The notes under the pieces were generated by a model, which saw nothing but the letters and a program-made list of their open reading frames with translations, ran no database searches and was not told where the DNA came from. Positions 4,104-31,035 of a stretch of 32,034 nt of DNA are shown in pieces (the first letter of the stretch is position 1; each line of letters begins with the position of its first letter). The DNA is from Sedimenticola hydrogenitrophicus (GTDB taxonomy: Bacteria; Pseudomonadota; Gammaproteobacteria; Chromatiales; Chromatiaceae). The stretch spans positions 1-32,034 of the forward strand of contig NZ_JANIOA010000046.1 of the NCBI RefSeq assembly GCF_025175675.1. Direction: 5' to 3'. A program made the position numbers and the translations under genes.

Positions 4104-4219
4104 CACCCGAAGCACGAAGCGTGGGCTCGAACAGCGCGGCCACCCTCCACTCCCGCGCCCGGGGCGTTCATTAGAGCCGATCCAATGCACCACGGAGACC
4201 CAGAGAACTCGGCGGTGGA

Positions 4220-4426
4220 GTAACTACTCGCGGAGTGATTGGCCTGCCTTGTTGGCCGATCTTGATGGCGCCTCGAATCCGGCCCCTTTTTCAGATTCAA
4301 GCCTGCCCTTGTTTGAGCGAAGCGAGTTTGGGCAGGCGCTGAAAATGGGGCCGGATTCGAGGATACAAGCCATCGTGTGAGGCCGGCAAGGTAGGCCAAT
4401 CACTTACATACCGGGTGAGTAGTTGC
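4220..4426 (+). mobile_element. MITE-like palindromic repeat, copy 1 (carries a nested insert)
   Basis: The left arm begins GTAACTACTCG then CGGAGTGATTGGCCTGCC. The right arm ends in the inverted form with an extra 8 bases, finishing GTGAGTAGTTGC. The core has CCTTGTTGGCCGATCTTG on the left and ACAAGCCATCGTGTGAGGCC on the right, shared with copies 2 and 3. Flanking octamers GCGGTGGA and AAGATGGA match at 5 of 8 positions, possibly a decayed target duplication. An 89-base block (4271-4359) is extra relative to copy 2. No coding capacity. Confidence 0.85.
4271..4362. repeat. Palindromic insert nested in repeat copy 1
   Basis: The perfect 16-base inverted repeat CCTCGAATCCGGCCCC (4271-4286) pairs with 4347-4362. 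A second inverted pair lies inside it, GCCTGCCC (4301-4308) with GGGCAGGC (4330-4337). Aligning copy 1 with copy 2 shows continuous core sequence on both sides of 4271-4359. This block therefore looks like a secondary insertion into an existing element. Confidence 0.75.
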
Positions 4427-4497
4427 AAGATGGAAATGGTTGATCCAGTGCGGCAGCACGCAGGGGACGCGTTTTCCGCGCCGTCGCCAACCTGCAT

Positions 4498-11581: not shown

Positions 11582-11670
11582 GATTACACCTCTCCCCGGC
11601 CTATATTGGCCCTGTGTATCGGGCCGGCTGGTTCATCTGCCGAATCCCTGGCTGCTTATTGAGTCTTATC

Positions 11671-11788
11671 GTAACTACTCACGGGGTGATTGGCCTGCCT
11701 TGCAGGCCTCACACGATGGCTTGTTTCCTCGCCAGCAAGATCGGCCAACAAGGCAGGCCAATCACTTACAGACCGGGTGAGTAGTTAC
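11671..11788 (-). mobile_element. MITE-like palindromic repeat, copy 2
   Basis: Perfect 12-base ends GTAACTACTCAC and GTGAGTAGTTAC. The short arm is on the left and the long arm (with the extra CCGGTCTG-type bases) on the right. The core holds ACAAGCCATCGTGTGAGGC and CCGATCTTG segments but in the orientation opposite to copy 1 relative to the arms. No clear 8-base target duplication is visible (GTCTTATC against GGTCATAT), so this copy may be old. It lies between the parA-like and DUF302 genes, both minus strand. Confidence 0.85.
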
Positions 11789-11796
11789 GGTCATAT

Positions 11797-12429
11797 TTAC
11801 TTCAGCATCCCGGGATAAAGTTTTGCACAGAGCGCGTTCAGCTCCTGGCTCCCCTTGCCCCGCGGATTCAGTTCAAACACCGCCAGCCCCTCGCTGAACG
11901 AGCGGCGAAAAATGGTACGCTGCGACAGTCGCGGCTTGATGAATTTCATCCCGGGCAGCGACACCAGGGCCGCCGCGGCCTCATCGGTCTCCCGCACGGC
12001 ATGATGGGTATCGCCCCGATTGATGAATCCGATCATCTCCGGGCTCTTCCCCTCGGTGGTGGAATTTACAAACTGGATGAACCGCTGGGTCGACCAGATA
12101 TCCGCCTGGGAGGGCGGAACCGGGACCAGGATGCGGTCGGCCAGCCGGATAGCGCGTTTCATCATCTCGATATCAGCGGTACCGATATCGATCAGCACTT
12201 CATCCACGCCATTCAGCCTGTTGCCATCCAGCTGTTTTTTCCCCTTCACGGAGATCCGGGGGTGATACCCCTCTTCATCCCGGACGTCCACCACGTCCCG
12301 CAGCGTGGCCTGGGGATCCAGATCGATAACCTGTACCTCGACTTCCGCCAGCGCCAGCCAGACGGCGAGGTTGAAGGTTACCGTGCTCTTCCCCGAGCCG
12401 CCTTTCAGACTACCCACGACAGTGATCAT
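11797..12429 (-). CDS. Orphan ParA/MinD-type partition ATPase
   Basis: A 210-residue deviant-Walker ATPase of the ParA family. The P-loop is KGGSGKST (9-16) with the signature first lysine. Next come VIDLDPQAT (switch I, 35-43), VLIDIG (about 78-83; the usual second Asp-x-Pro motif is altered) and PVPPSQADIW. It is short and lacks an N-terminal DNA-binding helix-turn-helix, like plasmid type Ib or VirC1-type ParA proteins. There is no ParB or centromere-like repeat beside it. Such orphans often position cargo other than chromosomes, for example envelope complexes, by cycling on the nucleoid or membrane. AAGGG precedes the ATG. Its location inside an envelope gene cluster suggests a positioning role, which is inference. 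Confidence 0.85.
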   Translation of the reverse strand: MITVVGSLKGGSGKSTVTFNLAVWLALAEVEVQVIDLDPQATLRDVVDVRDEEGYHPRISVKGKKQLDGNRLNGVDEVLIDIGTADIEMMKRAIRLADRILVPVPPSQADIWSTQRFIQFVNSTTEGKSPEMIGFINRGDTHHAVRETDEAAAALVSLPGMKFIKPRLSQRTIFRRSFSEGLAVFELNPRGKGSQELNALCAKLYPGMLK

Positions 12430-14969: not shown

Positions 14970-15028
14970 CCTGCCTGCCACTCTGTTCAGGGCTCGCGCA
15001 AGCATAATTTCGTAGTACCGAGGGTGTT

Positions 15029-15111
15029 CCTGGGCCCCGCTGGCGAGGCACGCTTTGCAGGCAATGGCTGTTCCCTTGCCAAAAAGCGTAACGCCGCCAG
15101 CGGGGTCCAGG
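15029..15111. repeat. 83-bp hairpin-forming inverted repeat
   Basis: The 17-base arms CCTGGGCCCCGCTGGCG (15029-15045) and CGCCAGCGGGGTCCAGG (15095-15111) match with one mismatch. A second imperfect inner pair, ACGCTTTGCAGGCAA (15050-15064) with TTGCCAAAAAGCGT (15076-15089), extends the stem. It lies between the RND pump stop and the small anchored protein. No T-tract follows on the minus strand, so it is more likely a dispersed REP-like element or mRNA processing site than a terminator. Confidence 0.65.
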
Positions 15112-15159
15112 GGCGATCGAATACCGGAACTTATTTTTGCGTGAGCCCTCACCACCTGT

Positions 15160-25180: not shown

Positions 25181-25214
25181 ATTGGATCTCTTTAGTTGGT
25201 ATTCTTGTTCATGC

Positions 25215-25373
25215 GTAACTACTCACCCGGTCTATAAGTGATTGGCGTGCCTTGTTGGCCGATCTTGGAGGAGCCATCGTGTGAGGCCGCTCCTGGGCAT
25301 CCCTGCCCTCGCGGCATTAGTGAATCCGTTCACGTCGCCGGCAAGGCAGGTCAATCACCCCGTGAGTAGTTAC
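25215..25373 (-). mobile_element. MITE-like palindromic repeat, copy 3, with perfect 8-bp target duplication
   Basis: The ends are GTAACTACTCAC and GTGAGTAGTTAC. It is flanked by the identical octamer GTTCATGC at 25207-25214 and 25374-25381. The long arm is on the left, inverse to copies 1, 2 and 4. The core shares CTTGTTGGCCGATCTTGG and GCCATCGTGTGAGGCC with copies 1 and 2. It also contains an extra stretch (about 25290-25340) ending in the short palindrome GTGAATCCGTTCAC. The right duplication includes the TGA stop codon of the HDOD gene. Confidence 0.9.
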
Positions 25374-25375
25374 GT

Positions 25376-26275
25376 TCATGCCAGCTGTCCCGCGACCCGT
25401 TCCAGATCATCCAACTGATGGCGCAAGGTCTCTTCGACCTGGGGGGTCCGCTCCCGATCCAGCCCATCGATGTTATCCAGCCAGCGGCAGTCGACCAGTG
25501 CGTACGCCTCGCCGCTACGAATAGCGCCCACCCAGTCGACCGCGCTATTCAACAGGTTGATCGCTGTCTGATGCGCACCGGAATAGCTGTCGTCGCCGAG
25601 AGATCCCATCATGGTCACAATGACGGGTGGCAGGTGCCAGCGCTCGGTCAACCAGGCCCCCGCTTGCCGATGGTCCATCCCGAGTCGTTCCCGTTCGATA
25701 TCCAGCAGATTTCCCGCCGGTTCCAGTGCCGCCACCTGCAGGACGGCGGTGTAGGCCTCGCCCATCACATGCACCAGCAGCAGGGCCCCAAGATTGTGGA
25801 ACAGTCCGCCCAGATAGAGCGCCGCCGCATCCGGTCGCCGCGCCGCCGGCAGCAACAGGGCGAGCGACCGTGCCAGCTGGCCGGCCGCCAAGGCTTTATA
25901 CCAGTAACCCGGCAGATCAAAAACAGGACACTTTTCCAGGTTGAACACCCCGGCGATGCTGATGCCCAGGGCGAGGCTCTTGACCATATTCAAGCCGAGC
26001 ACCCGGATAATGGCCTCCTCCACGCTGTAGACCGGCGCAGGCTGGGCGAAATAGGCCGAGTTAGCCAACCCCACGATGCGCGCGGCCAGCCCCGGATCCT
26101 GATCGATAATCGCCGCCAGCGCCTTCAAGTCGATGTCGTCGTTGGAGACGGCCTCCAGCAGTTTGGCGGCGGTGGTCGAGAGTGGCGGCAGCTGCTTGAC
26201 CTTGAGCAGTTCCCGCACCACGCGCTCTTGTTCAGCGTCCATAGCAATAGTGTTCCCGGTTATTTTCGTATCCAT
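25376..26275 (-). CDS. HDOD-domain signalling protein
   Basis: The HDOD domain is a degenerate relative of the HD phosphohydrolase fold, found in regulators of motility, biofilm and c-di-GMP signalling. It is visible as KQLPPLSTTAAKLLEAVS, then LKALAAIIDQDPGLAARIVGLANSAYF, IRVLGLNMVKSLALGI and LYLGGLFHNLGALLLVH, where metal-binding HD residues are missing. No other domain is attached. The ATG at 26275 gives 299 residues; the ATG at 26242 (GGGAA upstream) is also plausible. A still longer frame to 26392 would run into the nrtR promoter and is rejected. It lies upstream of the GGDEF gene on the same strand, separated by a MITE-like repeat. Confidence 0.82.
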   Translation of the reverse strand: MDTKITGNTIAMDAEQERVVRELLKVKQLPPLSTTAAKLLEAVSNDDIDLKALAAIIDQDPGLAARIVGLANSAYFAQPAPVYSVEEAIIRVLGLNMVKSLALGISIAGVFNLEKCPVFDLPGYWYKALAAGQLARSLALLLPAARRPDAAALYLGGLFHNLGALLLVHVMGEAYTAVLQVAALEPAGNLLDIERERLGMDHRQAGAWLTERWHLPPVIVTMMGSLGDDSYSGAHQTAINLLNSAVDWVGAIRSGEAYALVDCRWLDNIDGLDRERTPQVEETLRHQLDDLERVAGQLA

Positions 26276-29004: not shown

Positions 29005-29124
29005 TATTTGAGGAGTGGGTATTTTAGCGCAGAAAACAACTGATGGAAATCACTTCACATGGACATCAGTAATTCTAAGTATGGCTTTCAATAGCCGTTT
29101 AGTTATCCCGGCCCGGTTAGTAGG

Positions 29125-29204
29125 GAACCACGGATGGACACGGATTCACACAGATAGGAGATCAGAATACCGAATCCGTGTTTATCTGTGTGCATCCGTG
29201 GTTC
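29125..29204. repeat. Inverted repeat of the CCACGGATG type
   Basis: GAACCACGGATG (29125-29136) pairs with CATCCGTGGTTC (29193-29204), and inner CACACAGATA (29147-29156) pairs with TATCTGTGTG (29183-29192). The left arm has ten additional bases (GACACGGATT) whose partner, AATCCGTG, sits at the loop base. This looks like a dispersed intergenic repeat; only one copy is in the window. Confidence 0.7.
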
Positions 29205-30887: not shown

Positions 30888-30990
30888 GTATCGAACGATA
30901 AAGTATCAAACGATGTAACTACTCACGGGGTGATTGGCCTGCCTCGCCGGCCAATCACTTACTGACCGGGCGAGTAGTTACCAAACGATA
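30888..30990. repeat. 15-base tandem repeat interrupted by a MITE-like insertion
   Basis: Removing the element at 30915-30981 and one copy of its target octamer restores GTATCGAACGATAAA directly followed by GTATCAAACGATACT. This was therefore a tandem repeat with period 15, perhaps an operator upstream of the membrane-protein gene, now split by the element. Confidence 0.5.
30915..30981 (+). mobile_element. MITE-like palindromic repeat, copy 4 (core-less), with perfect 8-bp target duplication
   Basis: It has only 67 bases: short arm GTAACTACTCACGGGGTGAT, a CGCCGGC centre, and long arm ending GCGAGTAGTTAC. It is flanked by the identical octamer CAAACGAT at 30907-30914 and 30982-30989. It lacks the core present in copies 1-3, so the arms alone appear sufficient for mobility. 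It sits between the DUF2249 gene and the membrane-protein gene. Confidence 0.9.
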
Positions 30991-31035
30991 CTATATATCT
31001 ATATCCGAGGAGAACGTTGTAAATAAAGGTTCCAG

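Follow-up and report, generated by a model that had tools for sequence, protein, structure and literature searches.

MITEs with IS66-type ends in a Sedimenticola genome, probably remodelled in place after insertion

Introduction

It is well established that bacterial MITEs can have IS-type ends, and orthologous length variants are known for BOX elements. According to excerpts from the respective papers, RUP of Streptococcus pneumoniae consists of short repeats in 108 copies, which share their ends with an IS and are thought to be mobilised by IS630-Spn1 (PMC2229807); MITECca01 of Cardinium is about 240 bp long and is present in 169 copies with IS ends (PMC9769881); and orthologous BOX elements vary in length between strains (PMC3049150). 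The Correia/NEMIS repeats, as far as an excerpt describes them, are short and modular, with variants of 107 and 155 bp and an internal part of 50 bp. No description of IS66-derived MITEs was found in searches of the open-access literature, a coverage that leaves most subscription journals outside.

The stretch of DNA analysed here, referred to as the window, comprises 32,034 bases of a draft genome of 4.71 Mb in 132 contigs, from a Sedimenticola-like gammaproteobacterium to which, among named genomes, S. hydrogenitrophicus SN1189 and S. selenatireducens DSM 17993 are closest. An initial annotation had proposed that it contains four IS66-like MITEs. Inverted ends GTAACTACTCAC, 8-base duplications, dispersal, vacant sites and IS66 elements sharing the ends are observed directly. 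Judged from sequence comparison, the elements are very probably MITEs whose ends were recognised by a single-ORF IS66 transposase of the ISBst12 group, and which would later have been remodelled in place.

Results

Four copies in the window

The elements and their flanks are located as follows.

4220..4426, + strand: MITE copy 1, 207-bp class, long nested hairpin
4212-4219 and 4427-4434: flanks of copy 1, GCGGTGGA and AAGATGGA, 5/8 identical
11671..11788, + strand: MITE copy 2, 118 bp
11663-11670 and 11790-11797: octamers of copy 2, left GTCTTATC and right GTCATATT, with one additional G before the right one
25215..25373, - strand: MITE copy 3, 159 bp
25207-25214 and 25374-25381: octamers of copy 3, GTTCATGC, a perfect pair
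25286..25336, no strand given: REP-like module of 51 bp within the interior of copy 3
30915..30981, + strand: MITE copy 4, 67 bp
30907..30914, + strand: left target-site duplication of copy 4, CAAACGAT
30982..30989, + strand: right target-site duplication of copy 4, CAAACGAT

The coordinates of the four copies, 4220-4426, 11671-11788, 25215-25373 and 30915-30981, were verified, and the near-identical ends attributed to them were recovered. A 25-base query from the left arm matched the window four times (2, 0, 1 and 0 mismatches) and a 17-base query from the right arm seven times with at most three mismatches; 100 shuffled windows gave a mean of 0 matches for either query. The perfect 8-bp direct repeats reported around copies 3 and 4 are present (GTTCATGC and CAAACGAT). 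The target duplication of copy 2 has decayed, its octamers agreeing at 6/8 positions.

All four copies are intergenic, provided that the longer ORFs are genes. Their predicted folds have energies of -136.6, -65.4, -82.3 and -35.6 kcal/mol for copies 1 to 4 (RNA parameters). The window has no match to any Rfam family at the gathering score, and copy 1 (207 bp) has none in phage and plasmid collections at E 1e-5. The segment 3016-10357, which contains copy 1 and genes that we take to be ABC-transporter-like from their ORF sequences, is missing from the otherwise collinear locus L012 of S. hydrogenitrophicus SN1189 (G001).

A genome-wide family

A search of the whole genome with the 12-base end GTAACTACTCAC revealed many copies beyond the window: 86 forward and 88 reverse occurrences, or 174 exact ends, were found, with 0 in the backward control. 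The same 12-mer occurs 69 and 52 times in SN1189, once in each orientation in S. selenatireducens DSM 17993 (G002), and 0 times in the six remaining genomes of the genus. The annotated density of about one copy per 8 kb fits the window, with 4 copies in 32,034 bases, but does not extend to the genome, where 4.71 Mb contain 174 exact ends.

From 113 stretches of the genome and the window, 94 paired copies were catalogued, the window's four included, so that the family is by no means confined to the window. The catalogue is incomplete, as its DNA contains 154 of the 174 exact ends. Lengths range from 27 to 418 bp (n = 94), and no copy has a transposase gene. The commonest sizes are 207 bp (27 copies), 108 (9), 259 (8), 206 (7), 301 (6) and 107 (3); ten copies measure 27-75 bp. 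The 36 copies of 206-208 bp share a mean identity of 91%, and their interiors lie in either orientation relative to both arms: 17 versus 12 were assigned by script, and the 7 left over were split 4 versus 3 by eye. The 51-bp REP-like module of copy 3 is found at the same position in seven further copies of the catalogued stretches.

Two other kinds of dispersed repeat occur in the window. A palindromic repeat of about 161 bp (14989-15149), mostly flanked by TT and TA, occupies at least nine distinct places with 83-92% identity, among the 14 of 18 matches listed. A third repeat, of the CACGGATGGACACGGAT type (29094-29180), directly adjoins a MITE in L033.

Target duplications and vacant sites

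Octamer flanks were compared for 93 copies: 39 are perfect, 28 have one mismatch, 8 have two and 18 have at least three. At most one mismatch is thus seen in 67/93 copies, whereas 1000 shuffled pairings yielded 0.89 such copies on average and never more than 5; in the catalogue, the choice among several possible end pairs was made partly on flank agreement. In one case a 172-bp element is nested in a 418-bp element, with perfect octamers around each. This nested element (L058, 200-371) has the end GTAACTATTCAGCC, equal to one ISGst1-type IS66 end from Geobacillus plasmids.

Empty orthologous sites, which the initial annotation had proposed to look for, were found with one octamer and not two. 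The copy 4 site is vacant in five genomes of the genus, with a single CAAACGAT in G003 and a single CAAATGAT in G002, G004, G005 and G008; the G002 site was initially read by eye and then verified by a pattern scan. The copy 3 site is vacant in four genomes, with a single GTTCATGC in G005 and a single octamer with 1-2 differences in G002, G004 and G006. Ends resembling GTAACTACTCAC with up to two mismatches are absent from the 14 genus loci examined. Octamers duplicated without the element, which would have spoken against transposition, were not seen in these relatives. In SN1189, the L159 and L100 sites are exactly vacant, their flanks overlapping by exactly 8 bases. The window copies with a comparable site (n = 3) are all common to SN1189.

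Around the copy 4 insertion (30890-31000), the vacant site of the genus relatives is a conserved palindrome, AGTATCAAAYGATACT, with the form ATATAGTATC..GATACTATAT in G003. Immediately upstream, the window has a near copy, GTATCGAACGATA. Copy 4 has apparently interrupted an intergenic operator-like site.

Palindromic elements in many copies could also be REP/REPIN-type repeats moved by a Y1 transposase (RAYT, PF01797), of which the genome has five profile matches, and copy 3 does contain a REP-like module of 51 bp. Y1 transposition is not known to generate a target duplication. The matching octamers of 67/93 copies, together with the single octamer at vacant sites, largely refute this explanation, and the ends are identical to those of IS66 elements; we regard it as extremely improbable.

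The REP-like modules measure about 50-94 bp and occur in the window (25286-25336), in L277 (1720-1767), where one interrupts the palindromic repeat of about 161 bp, and in the L071 and L080 copies. Their central position in two unrelated hairpin families suggests a preference for hairpin loops. Three of the five PF01797 matches (C75:30674-30997, C99:13317-13640 and C83:16328-16669) span at least 111 of 121 profile positions without stops and are candidate RAYT enzymes for these modules.

Ends shared with single-ORF IS66 elements

The 12-mer was searched in 369 genomes of the class, including that of the window. It is present in 49 of them, and one or two hits are a level that the backward control columns show as well. 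Five end pairs 1711-1712 bp apart were found in G292 and one pair 1709 bp apart in G184, all with exact GTAACTACTCAC. Perfect 8-base duplications flank four of these six IS66 elements and are missing from two. IS66 profiles (PF03050 and NF033517) were scanned against three ORFs, from G292, G184 and L056. The single-ORF transposases of G292 and G184 (one from each, 483 and 495 amino acids) pass both cut-offs. The L056 element, from a genome of the window's family, has ends GTAACTTCTCAATAA and a 7/8 duplication, and its protein lies above the PF03050 cut-off and below that of NF033517.

Relatives of the G292 transposase adjoin GTAACTACTCAC ends in 10 of 20 stretches, from genomes G292, G184, G194, G249 and G093. 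Among the 29 new loci of the class-wide search, 3 have such a relative and 26 have none within about 1.5 kb; most single 12-mer hits elsewhere are therefore not such an IS. In two other genera, short elements with GTAACTACTCAC-type ends were noticed (L229, 121-275, and L238, 154-342), with octamers matching at 7/8 and 8/8 positions, and three further short end pairs (L230, L232 and L240) lack matching octamers.

Of six plasmid IS66 records, four have ends of the GTAACTATTCA, GTAACTACTTA or GTTACTGCCCA type and perfect 8-base duplications, and two gave no end pair under the criteria used. Ends GTAACTATTCAGCC and perfect octamers are seen in two plasmid copies, one of them annotated as ISGst1 family. 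An excerpt on ISDge4, a member of the ISBst12 group of IS66, gives its ends as GTGACTACTCAGCA / GTAACTGCTCAGCA and describes an 8-base repeat after actual transposition in the laboratory (PMC12898284). Since the G292/G184, plasmid and ISDge4 ends agree, the ends of the MITEs are those of single-ORF IS66 elements. This bears out the assignment of IS66-type ends and 8-bp duplications in the initial annotation, with exact ends in the G292 and G184 elements and near-identical ones in ISDge4.

The terminal inverted repeats are identical over 12 bases to those of the six G292 and G184 elements, and the identity with IS66 ends is limited to about 12-16 bases. MITE interiors bear no convincing likeness to seven IS66 elements, outside which the parent may lie. 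Matches away from the IS ends were found for 4/94 copies at E ≤ 0.01, the best covering 38 bases with 82% identity (E 7e-4). Other IS66 elements differ, such as L035 in SN1189, with GTAAGCG ends.

An IS66 transposase elsewhere in the genome had been put forward as the probable driver, which the present data do not support. The sole PF03050 match in the genome is a broken fragment covering profile positions 16-118 of 284 with two internal stops; the intended comparison with the ends of resident IS66 elements therefore found no intact fitting element. The G292 transposase had no match in nine genomes of the genus, in a search run without a positive control and therefore of little weight. SN1189 has four PF03050 matches, of which L035 alone has readable ends; L042, L049 and L053 gave no end pair under the criteria used. 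Given a broken fragment in the genome and no match in the nine genus genomes, the MITE family has probably been left without its driver, unless this is hidden in an assembly gap.

Comparison of the same sites in SN1189

Both flanks were placed on SN1189 stretches for 31 of the 94 catalogued copies. Two sites were empty, and six (L140, L115, L084, L075, L128 and L104) were set aside, since their ends or octamers failed to establish the same site. The 23 kept include L091, despite a refined octamer shifted by one base, and L165 and L124, of which the octamers are mismatched in either species, yet the flanks and ends agree. As the SN1189 stretches had been selected for holding copies, the shared fraction is uninformative on how many insertions are shared.

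At the 23 co-occupied sites, the two lengths agree to within one base in 7 pairs and are 10-193 bases apart in 16. The flanks of the same sites (46 pieces, 7181 aligned bases) have a mean identity of 0.962 and a single indel of at least 10 bases, in a comparison where few indels were favoured, since the flanks had to align near the element. Among the equal-length orthologs, five of 207-210 bp have 201-207 identical bases (97-99%), and the short ones L091 and L145 have 106/106 and 96/102.

The two assemblies compared are both drafts, of 132 and about 120 contigs, in which a copy is sometimes cut by a contig end (for example L102, L135 and L164). The main rival to change in place attributes the differences in length and orientation to errors in the assembly or sequencing of repeated hairpins. 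Its force is reduced by the identity of same-length orthologs, 97-99% against the paralog mean of 91%, with L091 fully identical and L145 lower; because same-length orthologs exceed paralog identity, there was no general mixing of copies. In its short form, copy 4 moreover retains right-arm bases that are private to its ortholog. We consider artefacts an unlikely source of these differences, and change in place is the preferred reading.

Kinds of probable change in place

At the copy 4 site, SN1189 has a 207-bp element between the same octamers, a difference of 140 bp. With this ortholog, copy 4 is most likely an internal deletion derivative of a 207-bp copy that lost 140 bp and not a 67-bp transposon, as judged from one ortholog pair. 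The right arm of the short form retains the bases private to its ortholog. Deletions are seen between short direct repeats: at GGCC in copy 4 and in L165 (207 versus 67 bp), and at TCAC in L258 (35 bp).

The ortholog of copy 3 measures 108 bp and lacks the 51-bp module, which is also one-sided in the L088 and L138 pairs. Inner modules of 52 and 94 bp distinguish L071 and L080. The interior is flipped between the species in L083 and in copy 2, the ortholog of which measures 108 bp and has a perfect GTCTTATT pair. L076 combines a flip of the whole element with a change of size. Inversion of whole elements is argued from L076 alone, which may instead reflect two independent insertions, because its octamer GTTCGAAC is palindromic. 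Standard interiors of 107/108 and 207 bp are swapped in L067 and L066. Both swaps use the standard 108 junction, and L066 retains an arm variant common to both species; this suggests exchange among dispersed copies rather than new deletion. L144, L068 and L103 are among the remaining changes, mixed or simple deletions. The four window copies thus stand as family members and not as four intact size types, copies 2, 3 and 4 differing from their orthologs.

The recurrent lengths could mean that each size (27, 35, 67, 108, 207, 259 and 301 bp) is an independently transposing element. An [A/G]TCCA junction is common to 13 of the 14 short copies in which the junction is readable, and the 108 class at least has therefore spread as such. 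However, a 67-bp copy faces a 207-bp one twice (L165 and copy 4) and a 35-bp copy does so once (L258 versus L085), so that the smallest forms can arise in place. We regard independent transposition of every size as quite improbable. Copies of 27 bp (L109, octamers 8/8, and L121, 7/8) and of 35 bp (L097, 7/8, and L119, 6/8) had been considered as tiny transposons; this was dropped on one ortholog pair, the 35-bp L258 of S. hydrogenitrophicus, whose counterpart at that site measures 207 bp.

The hairpins might also have been retained as regulatory RNA, acting as terminators or on mRNA stability, rather than as plain mobile DNA. Their folds are very stable and the window copies intergenic, on the above proviso about ORFs. 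Against this, interiors vary freely between sister species (16/23 sites) and Rfam recognises nothing in the window; neutral parasites accumulate intergenically too. A regulatory role, which would be compatible with the main reading, is given little credence here.

Discussion

It is presumed that the copies were inserted by an ISBst12-group transposase that bound to their ends, and that this enzyme arrived on an autonomous element since lost from the genome or left unassembled. Most insertions would be old. After insertion, the near-perfect hairpins appear to have been altered where they stand, through shortening, inversion, interruption and re-assortment. Replication slippage and template switching at the hairpin, together with recombination between copies, would be the most likely causes. 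Copy 4 would be one such shrunken copy, on the evidence of its single ortholog. A bolder proposal, offered tentatively and at less than even confidence, is that long-hairpin MITEs are fixed docking sites with constantly rewritten interiors, as 16/23 sites differ between flanks about 96% alike.

With its ends, duplications, vacant sites and matching IS66 elements, such a family could serve as a type case, and the pairs of orthologous copies constitute a natural experiment on the mutation of long hairpins in bacterial chromosomes. They also call for caution, since a small size that recurs is not necessarily that of a transposing unit.

Elements of the ISBst12 group of IS66 (ISDge4, ISGst1-type) have the same GTAACT-type inverted ends and 8-base duplications as these MITEs. 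The complete IS66 elements with ends found measure 1.5-1.8 kb and contain a transposase ORF, whereas the MITEs measure 27-418 bp and have neither an ORF nor a matching interior. MITECca01 goes back to an IS982-family element of which the same genome retains intact copies, whereas no intact fitting IS was found here. RUP has IS630-type ends and TA targets, in contrast to the IS66 ends and 8-base duplications of the present family. BOX elements vary by the number of boxB modules, whereas these MITEs vary through deletion, inversion, nested insertion and class swaps.
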